A DNA stretch of 23,530 nt from a virus: positions 1-23,530 of IMG/VR virus record IMGVR_UViG_3300028589_000048; one strand, 5' to 3'. Below are positions 10,712-17,166 of this stretch, in pieces. The translations under genes were made by a program, and so were the position numbers. A model generated the notes under the pieces. It ran no database searches, was not told where the DNA came from, and worked only from the letters and a program-made list of their open reading frames with translations. Every line of letters begins with the position of its first letter. Within the stretch, counting starts at the first letter, position 1.

Positions 10712-12424
10712 TTAGGCGACGGGTGCGTTGGCGAAGTTGTCGTTACCGTCCGACAGGCCGGCGCGGCGGCCGTTGGCGTAGAACGGGAACGTGACGCGGT
10801 TGCCGCGGTTGCACGGGTTGGTCATCAGGACGCCCTGCTCGACGAACAGGTGGACGTAGTCGTTCTTCTTGAGGTTGGTGGAGTCGTAGATGGTGTCGAG
10901 GGAGATGACCGGAGCCACACCCGCGACGAACGAGCCCGCCGGGTAGAAGATGACCTCGACCGTGTCCGGGTAGGTCAGCGCCAGCTGGGTCGTGGCGTCC
11001 AGCGCCAGATCCTGGAAGCCCTTGATCCACTGGACCTTGAGGTTGCGGGCGGTGAAGTGCGACTCGATCTGCGCGTCCGTGACGGAGATCGTGTCGACGC
11101 CTGCGCGCTGGGCCAGGTCCACCCGGATAACGCTCTTGACCCACCACGGGATGAGGGCTTCGAGGGTCTGGGTGGGGGAGAGCATGAGGCGCTGGCGTTC
11201 GCCGTTGGCCAGCATCTCGAGGATGTGCAGGATGTCCAGCGCATTGCCGAAGCCGTTGGGGATGTTGGTCGCCGTGCCGGAGAGCGTGCGGATCTGCGCG
11301 ATCTTCTTCTGCGCCAGCTTGTACTGGTGCGCCAGCAGGGTCAGCTGGGCCCAGCGGTCGACCAGTTCCGGCCAGCCCTGGCGCAGCAGCAGACCGTTTT
11401 CCATCATCACGCCGACGGCGTCGAGGCGGGCTTCCTCGAAGTCGGGGACCTCGGGGCGGATGCTCGTCTTGAGTTCGGTGCCTGCCTCGGCGACCGCTTC
11501 GGTCATGTCCCAGAAACCGGTGGAGGAGTTGACCACGTCACCGAAGTTCGGGCCGCGGGTCCACTCGATGCCGCCGCGGGTGATGGTGACCTCGGGGACC
11601 GAGACCAGACCGTCGAGGGATTCCATCTCGCAGAAGTCCAGGGACCGCTCGGACGGGGCGCCCCAGCCGCCGGCGGCGACGAGGGAACCGCCGGGCAGGC
11701 GGGATTCCTTGGACGCGGCCATCAGCAGCTCGGTGATGTCCTTGCCCTTGCCGAAGGCCGGGTTGGAGGTGGAGAACTCGTTGTCCGGCAGCTGGATCTG
11801 CAGCGCGGAGGTGCGCTGGCGCACGCCGGGCATGTAGCCCTCGGGCAGCTGGGCGAGCTGGTTCAGGATGGCCTGGCCGGCTTCCTTGAAGGAGTTGAAC
11901 TCCTGGCCGGACTTGAAGCCCGGGACGTCGTTGGCTGCGTACAGCTTGGACTTGGAGACCTCGGCGGCCGGGGCCTGCTCCTGCTCCGGTGCCTTGCCCT
12001 TGGCCGCGGTGGCGGCGAAGGAGCGCAGCTTGGCGGGGCGCTGGATGGACGCGGCGACGGCGGCCGGCTTGTCCTCTTCCTTGGGTGCTTCCTCGGCGGG
12101 AGCTTCCTCGGCGGGGGCACCCTCGGCGGGGGCACCCTCGGCGGGGGCTTCTTCCTCGGCGGGCTTGGCCTCAAGGTTGGACTTGATGGACGCGAGGCGG
12201 TCGGCGCGGGCCTGCGCGGCCTGTTCGCGGCCTTCGTTTTCGGCCTTGGCGGCGGCGACGAAACCGTCGATGGCCTCCAGGTCGGCGAGCTGCTCGTCGG
12301 TGATCTCGGCGGCTTCGACTGCGGACAGTTCCTTGTAAGCCTCGAAGGCTTCATCGACGGCTGCTGCGAGCGCGTCTGCGTCCAGTTCGGCCAGGTTCTC
12401 GGGTGCTACAAACTTCTTAGCCAT
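10712..12424 (-). CDS. Major capsid protein with fused scaffold-like N-terminus (570 aa)
   Basis: The ATG at 12424 follows AAGGAGA by 8 nt, one of the strongest ribosome binding sites in the window. Residues 1-90 form a highly charged Ala/Glu coiled-coil region; residues about 86-115 are a low-complexity EAPAEGAPAEE stretch. From about 160 the chain is globular and fits an HK97-fold shell protein, with LPGGSLVAAGGWGAPSE, TRGGIEWTRGP, NPCNRGNRVTFPFYANGRR and many hydrophobic strands. The N-terminal part likely acts as an internal scaffold, removed by the upstream protease. Position after portal and protease and isolation between two terminators fit a highly expressed shell gene. Confidence 0.93.
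   Translation of the reverse strand: MAKKFVAPENLAELDADALAAAVDEAFEAYKELSAVEAAEITDEQLADLEAIDGFVAAAKAENEGREQAAQARADRLASIKSNLEAKPAEEEAPAEGAPAEGAPAEEAPAEEAPKEEDKPAAVAASIQRPAKLRSFAATAAKGKAPEQEQAPAAEVSKSKLYAANDVPGFKSGQEFNSFKEAGQAILNQLAQLPEGYMPGVRQRTSALQIQLPDNEFSTSNPAFGKGKDITELLMAASKESRLPGGSLVAAGGWGAPSERSLDFCEMESLDGLVSVPEVTITRGGIEWTRGPNFGDVVNSSTGFWDMTEAVAEAGTELKTSIRPEVPDFEEARLDAVGVMMENGLLLRQGWPELVDRWAQLTLLAHQYKLAQKKIAQIRTLSGTATNIPNGFGNALDILHILEMLANGERQRLMLSPTQTLEALIPWWVKSVIRVDLAQRAGVDTISVTDAQIESHFTARNLKVQWIKGFQDLALDATTQLALTYPDTVEVIFYPAGSFVAGVAPVISLDTIYDSTNLKKNDYVHLFVEQGVLMTNPCNRGNRVTFPFYANGRRAGLSDGNDNFANAPVA
12091..12150 (-). repeat. Four tandem 15-bp repeats inside the capsid gene
   Basis: The plus-strand unit CCTCGGCGGGGGCAC occurs four times in phase (12091, 12106, 12121, 12136), with the first and last copies ending in CTT. 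Each copy encodes five residues of the EAPAE/GAPAE linker between the scaffold-like region and the shell domain of the major capsid protein. In-frame unit length means copy number can change without breaking the gene. Confidence 0.85.
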
Positions 12425-12724: not shown

Positions 12725-15289
12725 CTAATGTCCCTTCATAGTGGTGATCAGGTTTGTCTTGAGGTCTGCAAACCGCTGGGCGCGGATGCTCGCCTTGATT
12801 GCGTTTACGGTTTGAAGCCTCTCAGTGAGGGTAACCGTCTCCTTGTGCGGCATACCGGCGGCGACAAGCGACACCTGCCGGGTGCCTTCCATCGCAAACC
12901 GGGGCCGCGGCACCGGGAAGCCCTGCACATTCACCGCGTGCGCGGCCACCAGCTCCATCGAATCCGACCCCCGGTACCGGACCCCGCGCCAGTCACCGCT
13001 CGGCCCGGCGGCGAACAGCTCGTGGATCTGCTTCTCCGTCGCCCAGGGCCGGATCCGGCCGGAGAACCACACCCCGAACGCATCCTCCCCGACCGTGATG
13101 TCAGCGACGGCGGTGGCGACGTTGTCGTAGTGCGCGATGGCGGCCCGGACCCCGAGCTTGCCGTCCGCGTGGCCGCCGCCCACAGTCAGCTGCCCCACCG
13201 CCACGGGACCTGCGTCGGTAAAGACCTGCCCGGTCAGGAAGTAGGCGTAGTCCGTCATCGACGGCGGGACCGTGGTGCACACCTCGTAGGCGATGTGGCA
13301 GGCATCCCACACCCCGAGGTGGCCGAAGATGTGCCCGTCCTCGCCGCGGGTGACCGGCGTCGGGCCCTCCAGCATCGGGTTGCGGAAGTAGTCGGCGCTG
13401 ATCGTCGGGGCGGCGGAGGCCACCAGCGAGAACGCCGGCGCCGTTTCCTGCGGGGCGACGTCCCCGGGCCAGTCCGGGATCGGCACCATCGCACCGGTCG
13501 GCATCGGCTCGTTGGCGAAGTCGGCCCAGGTGCCGTTGCGCACAAACGCCTCGGCGAACGCCGGGATCGCGCACAGCGTGGCAGCGGAGATCCGGCCCTG
13601 CGTGAACTCGATCGAGGGCTGGCCGCCGTCCTCGGAGGCCTCGACCATCTCGCCCTCGGCCGCGTCCAGATCCACCGAGACCCCGCGCCACATCTTCTTC
13701 TCGACCAGATCGTAGGCCCGGTTCGCGTCCGGGGTGTCATCCCAGACGCCCTCGGCCTTGATCAGCCCGCCGTCACGGTAGACCGCGTCGATGCGCGCCA
13801 CCACCACGGAGCCCTCGTGGCCCTCGCCGTCGGCGAACATGGCCTTGATCGACAGCGGCAGGTCCCGGGTGGTCAGCATCCGTTCGGCGAACTTGCGCTT
13901 GTCCCCGGAGGGGGAGCCTTCGGGGGCGAGGACGCCGTGCCAGGGCCGGAGGTTCTCGGCGGGCTTGTCGGCGATGGGGACATCGGCGGCGGGGGCCTCA
14001 GCGGCAGGCGCGGGGCCAGCGGGCTTCGCATCAGGTGCGGTGGGAAGCTTCCCTTCGGGGGTGTTGGCGAAGATGCCATCGACCATCTCCTGTGTGAATC
14101 CACCATCTTCGGGGTGGATGATCTTGCCGCTGTGGGCCGCGTATTCGTCGTTGAGCCTGAGCTTTTCAGGCAGGGATTTCGGTGTTTCCGCGGGCATGGT
14201 TTCTCCAAGGGGGTAGACGGCGGTGCGGTCCTCGCCGAACCACAGGGCGAGACGGTCGAAGGTGATGGCCTCCCCGAGGTAGTCCGCCAGGCGCGGGGTC
14301 TCCGGGTAGCCGAGGGTGACGTGCGGGATCCACGTCGGATACTGCTCGACGGAGTCGAAGGCCTGAGCCAGTTCGTCCATCCCCAGCAGCCCGGTGTAGA
14401 TGGCCTTGAGGTTGGCCGCGTCCAGCAGCACCACGTCGGCCTTGTTCGAGCCGAGCACGGCGGAGCCGTTGACCTTGTCCGTGACGACGCCGACCTGGCC
14501 CTCGGTGACGAACTGTTCCAGCGCGGTGGCGAGCGCGGCCTGATCCAGCGCGGCGGTGTCGCCGAGGAACAGCAGGGTGCAGTGCGCGCCGTCGGCTTCG
14601 GAGGACGCGGCGCTGACCGGGTCCGAATCGGCCGGCAGCGCGACAATCACACAGGTGGTGGAGATGTCCCCGTCCTGCGGGTCGGCGGCGGCGGTCAGGG
14701 TCGCGGCGGTGAAGTCCCCGATCATGGTGGGCCGGGCCACGCAGCGGCAGTTGATCCAGTTCGCCGGATCCCCGACCGGCTGGCCGGGATAAAGCACCTT
14801 CTCCCCGCCGACGGAGAACTCCTGCCCGGAAGGCACGGTCTGCCCGGATGCCGCGGCGTGCGCGGACCGGACGTCGGCGTCGGACATGGTGACCCACTCC
14901 AGCCCGACCTCGGTCGAGGTGTCGGATGTGGCGGCGGCCTCCATTGCGGCGTTGTGCGCCATCGAGACCACCCAGCCCGTGATGGTGTTCAGCTGCGCCT
15001 CGCGGTTCGCGGCGGTCTTGGTCTGTTTCAGCGCCTCGCCCAGCTCATGCGCGAAGGCGTCCCGCAGGTCATCGAGGACCTGACCCCAGGCGTCGACCTC
15101 GGCGGTGGCCATCTCGGTGAACAGGTCCTTGGCGTGGTTGACGATCCCGTACTCCCAGGACGGGAGCCCGAGCCGGTCCAGCGCCTCCTTCACGAAGGGC
15201 CGGATCGCCTCCTCGGCGTCGGTGAGGACCTTGCGCCGGGCGGCAGCGAAGTCCTCGGTGGATGCGGCGAAGCTCTCGGCGCGGATCAT
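12725..15289 (-). CDS. MuF-like / 2H phosphoesterase / capsid maturation protease fusion (854 aa)
   Basis: Four regions are visible. Residues 1-190 are MuF-like, ending in the conserved WVTMSDADVRSAH (132-144) and NWINCRC (177-183). Residues about 210-365 carry two H-x-T motifs, AHCTLLFLG (H236) and PHVTLGY (H323), the hallmark of 2H phosphoesterases (LigT / 2'-5' RNA ligase fold). A Pro/Ala linker (about 415-445) follows. Residues about 450-600 resemble a prohead protease of the HK97/S78 type, with H491, RGVSVDL (S538) and GRISAATLCAIPAFAEA. Residues about 650-815 (GHLGVWDACH, YAYFLTGQVF, GDWRGVRY, HAVNVQGFPVPR) are the C-terminal module I associate with actinophage proteases. It is coupled to the portal gene by ATGA. 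MuF and protease calls are firm as families; the role of the 2H domain is unknown. Confidence 0.88.
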   Translation of the reverse strand: MIRAESFAASTEDFAAARRKVLTDAEEAIRPFVKEALDRLGLPSWEYGIVNHAKDLFTEMATAEVDAWGQVLDDLRDAFAHELGEALKQTKTAANREAQLNTITGWVVSMAHNAAMEAAATSDTSTEVGLEWVTMSDADVRSAHAAASGQTVPSGQEFSVGGEKVLYPGQPVGDPANWINCRCVARPTMIGDFTAATLTAAADPQDGDISTTCVIVALPADSDPVSAASSEADGAHCTLLFLGDTAALDQAALATALEQFVTEGQVGVVTDKVNGSAVLGSNKADVVLLDAANLKAIYTGLLGMDELAQAFDSVEQYPTWIPHVTLGYPETPRLADYLGEAITFDRLALWFGEDRTAVYPLGETMPAETPKSLPEKLRLNDEYAAHSGKIIHPEDGGFTQEMVDGIFANTPEGKLPTAPDAKPAGPAPAAEAPAADVPIADKPAENLRPWHGVLAPEGSPSGDKRKFAERMLTTRDLPLSIKAMFADGEGHEGSVVVARIDAVYRDGGLIKAEGVWDDTPDANRAYDLVEKKMWRGVSVDLDAAEGEMVEASEDGGQPSIEFTQGRISAATLCAIPAFAEAFVRNGTWADFANEPMPTGAMVPIPDWPGDVAPQETAPAFSLVASAAPTISADYFRNPMLEGPTPVTRGEDGHIFGHLGVWDACHIAYEVCTTVPPSMTDYAYFLTGQVFTDAGPVAVGQLTVGGGHADGKLGVRAAIAHYDNVATAVADITVGEDAFGVWFSGRIRPWATEKQIHELFAAGPSGDWRGVRYRGSDSMELVAAHAVNVQGFPVPRPRFAMEGTRQVSLVAAGMPHKETVTLTERLQTVNAIKASIRAQRFADLKTNLITTMKGH

Positions 15290-17166
15290 GCGGCTGCCTC
15301 CATCGAGGTCGAAACGATCCCGGCGTGCAGGTGCCGGCTGAACTTCTCGAAGCTGTGCGCCTCCTGGCTGGTGAGCAGCTTGGCGGTGTAGTCGGCCAGC
15401 AGCGCCTCCAGCCCGGAGGGGGAGACCCGGGCGCGGGCCGCGATCAGCGGCACATGCGACCAGGCGTCATCGAGCAGGAACTCGGTGTCGGTCGCGGCGA
15501 CGAACTTGTAGATGTCGGCCGCGGCGCAGGTCGGCTTTACCTGCATCTTGGACTTGAGCTTGTTCCCGGCCCGCTCCAGCGCCCGGATCACGATCTGTTC
15601 GGACGCGCCGATCAGGGACGCCTTGCGTTCGACGTCGGCGGAGGGCACCCGGCCCTCGTCCCGGGCGATCTTGCGCCGGTCCGAGACTTCCTGGTCCGGG
15701 ATGCCGGTGGCCGGGTGGTCCTCGAGCGAGGGGCCGGGCCGACCCTCGGTGCCGGTCTCGGCCGGGGCCTCGGGGCGGATGACGGTGAGGCTGACGCCGA
15801 GTTCTTTCAGCGCCGCCTCGACCAGCTCCGGGGTGGTGGACCCGGCGGCGACCTTGCGGGTCAGCCAGGTCGCCAGCTGGGCGTCGTCGCGCATGTCGTC
15901 GGGCTCGAAGCCGCACTCGCGGACCAGCGCCTCGTCCGAGAGCACGCCGAGCGCGTGCAGCTCCATGGCCTCCTTGGACCGGTTGGGCCGCAGCCGCATC
16001 TCGGAGGTGTCCGCGCCGATGGAGTAGGCGCCGAGGCGCTCGCCGTCGAAGGTCGCATCCTCGGAGAGCAGCGGGCGCAGGTAGCCCTTGGCGATGCCGG
16101 TGGTGATGATTTTCAGCAGCGGCTCGGTATGGGACTTGATCGCGGACTCGTCGGCCTGCCAGGCGGACCAGTGGTTGGAGTCCCCGACGCCCTGGAGCAC
16201 CTCGGGGGGCATGTCCATGCCGAGCGCGAGCCGGCCGATCGCTTCCTTGCGCAGCTCGATGGCCTTCTCGTCCAGTTCGGACCAGAACGTCAGGTGCTTG
16301 ACGGCGGCGATGTCCTCGGCGGAGGCCGTGACGACGATGGGCACAATCGCGGAGGCGTCGTCACGGTTCTGGATGGACCGGGCCATCGCCTCCATCAGGA
16401 TTTTCATCAGGTCATCGGCGTTGTTGGCCTTCTGCACCTGCGGCGCGGGGCCCTCGGTCGCGGGCGGGGTGGGCAGGCCCATGGTGGAGGGCATCAGCAG
16501 GATTCCGGCGCCGGCGAGCCGGGAATCGATCTGCGCGGAGACGTGCTGGGAGAGTTTGTACAGCTCGTGCAGGGTGGTGCGGATGGCCTTGGCCGGGGAG
16601 GTGGAGAGCTGGGGTTCCTTGGGGTGCGGGCGCCAGAGCCGGATCGCCAGGACCTTGTCGTTGGGGACCTCGGTCAGGACGACGTCGTTGACCTTCCACG
16701 AGTCCGACGGGGAGTCGGTGGCGGGGCGGACGCACTTGGTGGACGCCGCGATCTCCCATTTGTCCCCGCCCTCGCCGAACGGGTCGGGGTCCGGGTAGCC
16801 GACGATGTAGCATTCGCCGGTGACAGACATGTGGATCCCGATCAGGCGGAACATCTCGGCCCGGCCGTCGGCGTTGCCGAACAGCGCGGAAAGGTACTCG
16901 GGGATGTTCCCGTCGACGACTTTCTCGATGCCGTCGGCGGTTTCCACGGTCCCGTAGATCAGCGCCTTGGAAAGCTGTGCGCCGATCCAGTCGCAGGCGT
17001 AGCGGAACTCGCCGATGGCGTCGTAGTAGCGCCATACTTCCTCGTGCCAGTGGTCCGCTGTGCTGTTCCGCATTGTGCCCATACTGAATCCGCCCCGGAT
17101 GCGGGCGGCGGAGGCCACAAGCGAGGTGGGAGCAGGTGCGGGTTCCTGCTTCTTCATGCGCGCCAT
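15286..17166 (-). CDS. Portal protein
   Basis: The portal forms the dodecameric ring at the capsid vertex through which the terminase packages DNA, and onto which the head-to-tail adaptor docks. At 626 aa it is in the range of actinophage portals. The segment GVGDSNHWSAWQADESAIK (326-344), followed by HTEPLLKIITTGIAKGYLRP, is the characteristic stem/crown region of this class. IGRLALGMDMPPEVLQG just before it is also typical. It follows the large terminase, has a clear AAGGA ribosome binding site 8 nt upstream, and its stop overlaps the MuF/protease gene by 4 nt (ATGA). The last ~130 residues are helical and may reach into the capsid. Confidence 0.93.
   Translation of the reverse strand: MARMKKQEPAPAPTSLVASAARIRGGFSMGTMRNSTADHWHEEVWRYYDAIGEFRYACDWIGAQLSKALIYGTVETADGIEKVVDGNIPEYLSALFGNADGRAEMFRLIGIHMSVTGECYIVGYPDPDPFGEGGDKWEIAASTKCVRPATDSPSDSWKVNDVVLTEVPNDKVLAIRLWRPHPKEPQLSTSPAKAIRTTLHELYKLSQHVSAQIDSRLAGAGILLMPSTMGLPTPPATEGPAPQVQKANNADDLMKILMEAMARSIQNRDDASAIVPIVVTASAEDIAAVKHLTFWSELDEKAIELRKEAIGRLALGMDMPPEVLQGVGDSNHWSAWQADESAIKSHTEPLLKIITTGIAKGYLRPLLSEDATFDGERLGAYSIGADTSEMRLRPNRSKEAMELHALGVLSDEALVRECGFEPDDMRDDAQLATWLTRKVAAGSTTPELVEAALKELGVSLTVIRPEAPAETGTEGRPGPSLEDHPATGIPDQEVSDRRKIARDEGRVPSADVERKASLIGASEQIVIRALERAGNKLKSKMQVKPTCAAADIYKFVAATDTEFLLDDAWSHVPLIAARARVSPSGLEALLADYTAKLLTSQEAHSFEKFSRHLHAGIVSTSMEAAA

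Follow-up and report, generated by a model that had tools for sequence, protein, structure and literature searches.

On balance, we favour the interpretation that a head polyprotein cut by its protease carries an intact 2H phosphodiesterase as cargo, that this cargo is an exchangeable cassette, and that it is processed and delivered as proposed below. Enzymes of the 2H phosphodiesterase fold cut RNA ends or cyclic-nucleotide alarm signals. The domain lies in a 23.5-kb IMG/VR viral fragment, and "the window" refers to that full stretch throughout. The minus strand of the window encodes a terminase, a portal, the 854-aa head protein, a 47-aa ORF, the capsid protein and tail genes, and the features of the head protein are as follows.

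12725..15289, minus strand: head polyprotein, 854 aa, consisting of MuF, 2H, HK97-type protease, conserved C-terminal domain (CTD) and C-terminal helix
14720..15262, minus strand: MuF domain, residues ~10-190 (PF04233 at residues 98-185, PHROG head morphogenesis, AlphaFold2)
14201..14659, minus strand: 2H phosphoesterase domain, residues 211-363 (profiles, alignment, AlphaFold2, Foldseek)
14576..14584, minus strand: first H-x-T motif, H236-C-T238, invariant in alignment A2 and kept in 40/40 unselected relatives
14315..14323, minus strand: second H-x-T motif, H323-V-T325 (PHVTLGY), kept in 39/40 unselected relatives
13955..14200, minus strand: disordered linker between 2H and protease, residues 364-445 (AlphaFold2), where the strict cleavage motif is absent
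13496..13945, minus strand: HK97-type (S78-like) prohead protease, residues 449-598 (TIGR01543; Foldseek matches to herpesvirus protease and T4 gp21)
12830..13402, minus strand: CTD, residues ~630-820 (alignment A4, AlphaFold2 model)

The full-length AlphaFold2 model consists of separate folded domains (MuF, 2H, protease, CTD and terminal helix) linked by disorder, with MuF at residues ~10-190, disorder at 192-208, 2H at 211-363, disorder at 364-445 and the protease at 449-598. Upstream of the 2H domain, PF04233 matched at E 6.5e-5, which is under its curated cut-off, and the PHROG head morphogenesis family matched at E 1e-19. Downstream, the TIGR01543 HK97 prohead protease model matched residues 494-583 at a sub-threshold E of 0.0036, and the full-length model also matched herpesvirus proteases and T4 gp21 in Foldseek, a tool that does not state the matched region. 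The location between MuF and a capsid protease that the first-pass annotation had assigned to the 2H domain is borne out by these profiles and by the full-length model. The CTD carries many invariant residues (H-Y-D, S-G-D-W-R) and belongs to a widespread actinophage head family that has no Pfam family of its own. An H...S pattern raised the suspicion that the CTD duplicates the protease fold, but profile comparison did not support this, giving no significant protease-profile match. In the 2H-protease linker, the peptide KIIHPEDGGFTQEMVDGIFAN (window 14050-14125) has counterparts in the KVIHxEDxxFxQxMADAF-like peptides that follow the 2H domain in L011, L014 and L015.

A lone H-x-T pair could arise by chance in 854 aa, but the 2H assignment is backed by several independent tests, namely sequence profiles, the AlphaFold2 model and Foldseek. 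The segment at 14195-14662 encodes head-protein residues 210-365, and the 2H domain was modelled with the 56 sequences of alignment A2 at a pLDDT of 95.7 and a pTM of 0.90. Against the PDB, this model gave 29 Foldseek matches at E<=0.001, nearly all of them annotated 2H-fold proteins, including LigT, Arabidopsis cyclic phosphodiesterase (CPDase), rotavirus VP3 PDE and Usb1; LigT and Arabidopsis CPDase were the top folds, while the rotavirus VP3 2'-5' PDE had the best target-normalised TM-score (0.68). The 2_5_RNA_ligase2 profile (PF13563) matched the window copy at E 1.6e-4, with a sub-threshold 22.2 bits against a curated cut-off of 27 that some other 2H members exceed, and matched 56/56 homologues in alignment A2 at E<=0.01 (best 5e-12). 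The LigT_PEase profile matched 24/56 relatives, and TIGR02258, the RNA 2',3'-cyclic PDE model, was also among the best family models. Among solved structures, the top sequence-profile match was penguinpox cGAMP PDE (E 7e-5). Judged by profile matches, 2_5_RNA_ligase2 (56/56) is the nearest family of the domain. Members of the 2H superfamily have a bilobal 2H fold that bears two H-x-T/S motifs, and the domain shows these features. The model and profiles make it almost certain that residues 211-363 adopt this fold. The first-pass annotation had read a 2H domain from the letters alone, with two H-x-T motifs about 87 residues apart, and both the domain and the spacing were confirmed, the motifs falling at H236/T238 and H323/T325, 87 residues from each other. 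Like LigT/ThpR and 2_5_RNA_ligase2 (YjcG-like) phosphoesterases, the domain has this fold, two H-x-T motifs and these families as its nearest curated profiles; unlike them, the window copy scores below curated cut-offs, is part of a virion-assembly protein and has PHVTLGY as its second motif.

The first-pass annotation had also raised a link to Acb1 and thereby to CBASS, which the profile search and structure prediction against 2H families did not bear out: the 2H fold was found, and Acb1 was a weak Foldseek match (E 4e-3). The Acb1 Pfam family PF23474 gave no match to the window copy and a sub-threshold match (E 0.0016) to 1/56 relatives, and T4 Acb1 aligned with the 2H alignment over just 42 C-terminal columns. 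Membership of the Acb1 family was rejected on these grounds. The domain shares with the Acb1 anti-CBASS phosphodiesterase the 2H fold, the H-x-T/H-x-T tetrad and a phage origin, whereas Acb1 is encoded by a separate gene with no tie to head assembly. A PADLOC search gave no match, and tblastn with a frame-shadow peptide as the query gave no matches. T4 gene 57B, which encodes Acb1 (L185:1953-2411), is labelled "RNA ligase" in its RefSeq record; since Acb1 itself carries this name, the "RNA ligase" label on actinophage 2H proteins is uninformative on substrate.

The first-pass annotation had named loss of the H-x-T pair in homologues as a point against an enzyme, and the pair is instead kept in 39/40 distinct 2H domains from loci fetched without motif selection. 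This count includes only loci from other patterns, tblastn or CTD searches, and the loci of one scan were excluded because its pattern was the second motif itself. The sole exception is Streptomyces phage TurkishDelight (L029:3232-6675), whose second motif reads HVC rather than HVT. The invariant columns of alignment A2 concentrate on and around both motifs. Among the four domains, 2H had the highest dN/dS in 9/10 close pairs, which are partly non-independent, yet its values stayed below 1. In these sequence comparisons, the 2H domain evolves quickly with a fixed active site, and recombination may add to its divergence, as in L022 and L058, whose MuF domains are 99% identical and whose 2H domains are 80% identical. 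There is very little doubt, from the alignments, that the catalytic residues are kept, and we predict with good confidence that the 2H domain is an active enzyme.

We searched 183 loci with profiles of MuF, 2H, the protease (PROT) and the CTD. Within one head-protein family, these profiles revealed the architectures MuF-2H-PROT-CTD, MuF-PROT-CTD, MuF-PROT-2H-CTD, PROT-2H-CTD, 2H-PROT-CTD and CTD-2H. By these profiles, the 2H domain is absent from many phages that share the head-protein family and is thus dispensable. The best-fit CTD tree requires at least 16 changes in 2H presence or absence, few of which are forced by well-supported branches. When L015 and L113 were compared, the first 635 nt on the MuF side were 95% identical and the last ~1,850 nt were 81% identical; the segment between these conserved ends encodes 2H in L015 and an unrelated sequence in L113. 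The possibility that L113 carries a frameshifted 2H was rejected, as no frame gave a significant 2H match. Taken together, these comparisons make it highly likely that the 2H domain is an exchangeable cassette in head proteins.

In L122:940-6702, an intein-like (Hint) segment (...NHPVLTPEGYVK...VTHNC...) apparently splits the MuF domain. Three more conserved modules without a Pfam match lie between PROT and CTD in L152, L153, L183, L135 and others: the first reads DGPGW...WGxPGDFNRCRRQL...CANLH (phrog_6439), and the second and third read WDGSASRF...PNGDLNRxAVH and MPDGSFPIANxEDLxNAIQAIGRAK.

These results bear on whether the 2H domain is instead a structural, regulatory or vestigial element that acts as a spacer or helps assembly while its catalysis is irrelevant. 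While its embedding in a head-assembly polyprotein and its faster evolution than the flanking domains would fit such a role, the H-x-T pair persists in 39/40 unselected, highly divergent relatives with varied architectures as well as in separate genes, the dN/dS in close pairs is below 1, and the domain is readily lost or moved, changes that a structural link would not tolerate. We consider this explanation very improbable; the purely vestigial role that the first-pass annotation had entertained is likewise unlikely, with the catalytic residues intact.

Separate 2H genes also occur close to terminase or portal genes. In most of the separate 2H proteins (L026, L073, L078-L105), the 2H domain is immediately followed by the peptide HYGVKGMKWGVR (DUF7211), which is possibly a virion-targeting tag. 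In Gordonia phage GMA2, Orf10 (L184:7981-10632) combines, in one chain, a C-terminal 2H domain with an ADP-ribosyltransferase-like region immediately before it; this protein was deposited as a "putative structural protein", a label whose basis may or may not be mass spectrometry. In FlyingTortilla, the 2H gene sits between the portal gene and a VIP2-like toxin gene. The main text of a Gordonia phage virion proteomics study (PMC4524720) does not list the 2H protein. An alternative to delivery is that the 2H enzyme works while virions are being assembled, inside the producing cell, in late counter-defence or RNA processing. The domain is expressed within a late head protein, and many relatives encode it as a separate gene, in some cases adjoining the terminase, whose product does not have to be packaged. 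However, the covalent link of 2H to MuF and the protease speaks for packaging, as do the motif-bordered linkers and the co-location or fusion of 2H with ADP-ribosyltransferases next to portal genes. We therefore regard action in the producing cell as unlikely and putative carriage of the 2H domain in the virion as likely.

Relatives show strong enrichment of a recurrent peptide, [ST]-L-[VT]-A-[SA]-[AG], in their linkers, at portal N-termini and in capsid proteins; its wider form is [LIM][VTA]A[SA][AG], mostly with S, T, A or N before it. The motif was found in 22/41 MuF-2H linkers compared to an average of 0.7-0.8 in shuffled linkers, in 8/49 2H-PROT linkers (0.4 shuffled), in 76/91 PROT-CTD linkers (3.1 shuffled), in 73/106 CTD-end segments (4.3 shuffled) and in the portal N-termini of 45/72 relatives (0.8 shuffled). 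For inter-domain linkers, the enrichment persisted without near-duplicates and under relaxed motifs. The same motif often sets apart the three extra PROT-CTD modules. In the capsid proteins of relatives, it occupies two fixed positions, xLTAAADVPGF and GGSLVAAGGWCAPSE. The window contains the motif five times, always in the portal, head polyprotein or capsid protein and in 0/12 other ORFs scanned; these five sites and a variant are as follows.

17107..17124, minus strand: SLVASA at portal residue 15, near the N-terminus, same motif
14684..14701, minus strand: TLTAAA, residues 197-202, candidate site for the maturation protease within the disordered linker that joins MuF and 2H
13412..13429, minus strand: SLVASA, residues 621-626, in the protease/CTD linker, candidate cleavage site
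12854..12871, minus strand: SLVAAG, residues 807-812, candidate cleavage site close to the CTD end, ahead of the C-terminal helix
11669..11686, minus strand: SLVAAG in the major capsid protein (conserved GGSLVAAGGWxAPSE), same motif
11930..11944, minus strand: LYAAN (KLYAANDVPGF) in the capsid protein, a variant where relatives show LTAAADVPGF

A prohead protease would be expected to act on the portal, polyprotein and capsid protein, which makes the motif a strong candidate for the site cut by the maturation protease, and cleavage at the linker motif appears fairly probable from its distribution. It could instead be a docking peptide for the scaffold, portal or capsid, or an effect of Ala-rich composition, and the capsid GGSLVAAGGWxAPSE could indeed belong to the mature fold. 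Nevertheless, motif counts far exceed those in shuffles of the same linkers, the window copies are confined to the three expected substrates, and in relatives the motif recurs between consecutive small modules, which makes docking or composition a doubtful explanation. A search of PDB sequences for mature N-termini, with the complete head and capsid proteins as queries, gave no informative match, and actinophage capsid papers yielded nothing usable on capsid-protein cleavage sites. The processing motif is apparently undescribed in the open-access literature.

In the mechanism that we propose, MuF would anchor the polyprotein near the portal in the prohead, as MuF biology suggests. At maturation, the HK97-type protease of the polyprotein would cut [ST]L[VT]A[SA][AG], separating MuF, 2H and CTD, a step suggested by the placement of the motifs. 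The first-pass annotation had supposed that the 2H domain could be cut free, and the candidate motif in the MuF-2H linker agrees with this on one side. On the other side, the 2H-PROT linker of the window copy has no strict motif, in contrast with relatives L019, L041 and L036, where a match is present; complete release is therefore unsupported for the window copy, and its product may be 2H still joined to the protease. The 2H enzyme would then be retained in the head and enter the next host with the DNA, where, as follows from the fold, it would cleave a nucleotide phosphodiester through acid-base catalysis by its two H-x-T motifs. Its target would most likely be a host immune signal (a cyclic oligonucleotide or a 2'-5'-linked one) or 2',3'-cyclic RNA ends.

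Nothing in the sequence or fold points to one particular substrate. Penguinpox cGAMP PDE is the nearest solved sequence by profile, while RNA 2',3'-cyclic PDEs are nearest in families and folds. We tentatively predict a signal nucleotide, and RNA ends or RNA are a possible predicted substrate; signal nucleotides are placed slightly ahead, without strong grounds. If RNA were the target, which we consider possible, the delivered 2H enzyme would, through a LigT/ThpR- or CPDase-like activity, open 2',3'-cyclic phosphates produced by host anticodon nucleases or metal-independent RNases, or it would be a Usb1-like RNase that attacks host RNA. The best profiles (2_5_RNA_ligase2, LigT_PEase and TIGR02258) and the top folds speak for RNA. 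An RNase is also one of two options offered in a 2017 study, whose authors judged it to fit with the MuF and portal fusions (PMC5512222). In contrast, no RNA ligase or kinase was found among the window ORFs scanned, and the best target TM-score and the top profile match belong to the rotavirus 2'-5' PDE and the penguinpox cGAMP PDE, respectively.

That study, by Iyer et al. (PMC5512222), described 2H domains fused to MuF or portal and proposed, in the relevant passages, an RNase or a counter-invader nucleotide degrader, so the idea of a delivered 2H was already published in 2017. What is added here is the fold, the conservation, the cassette behaviour and the candidate processing sites. As in the polyvalent-type MuF-2H fusions of those passages, 2H and MuF share one polypeptide; unlike them, the 2H domain here lies inside a MuF-protease-CTD polyprotein with candidate cleavage motifs and varies in place and presence, and the passages leave a protease or processing unmentioned. 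MuF polymorphic toxins, as the relevant sections of PMC5576092 and PMC12226406 present them, similarly combine a MuF carrier with variable enzymatic cargo, but they are C-terminal toxins of temperate phages. In the head protein the cargo is placed internally, and bacterial genomes yielded next to nothing: a pattern-limited scan of 84,980 bacterial and archaeal species genomes returned 2 weak matches. For the MuF-protease fusions of Microbacterium and Arthrobacter phages (cluster EG), the relevant passages of PMC7302621 mention neither 2H cargo nor a cleavage motif.

Extended to actinobacterial phages, as seen in the isolates, a shared cleavage code would make the prohead a loading dock for interchangeable enzymes encoded in frame with the head protein, here an alarm-nucleotide-destroying 2H enzyme that is freed in the capsid and injected before phage gene expression, although we regard this picture as speculative and on the unlikely side. 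Should both cleavage and delivery prove true, the maturation protease of the capsid would gain a second job, namely releasing pre-packaged counter-defence enzymes. The linker motif would be a simple readout of the cargo modules in head proteins, and SilentRX, Tank, Squash and Hyperion are already isolated phages in which this readout can be checked. Without delivery, the motif would still predict, in testable form, where the prohead protease cuts in hundreds of actinobacteriophages.
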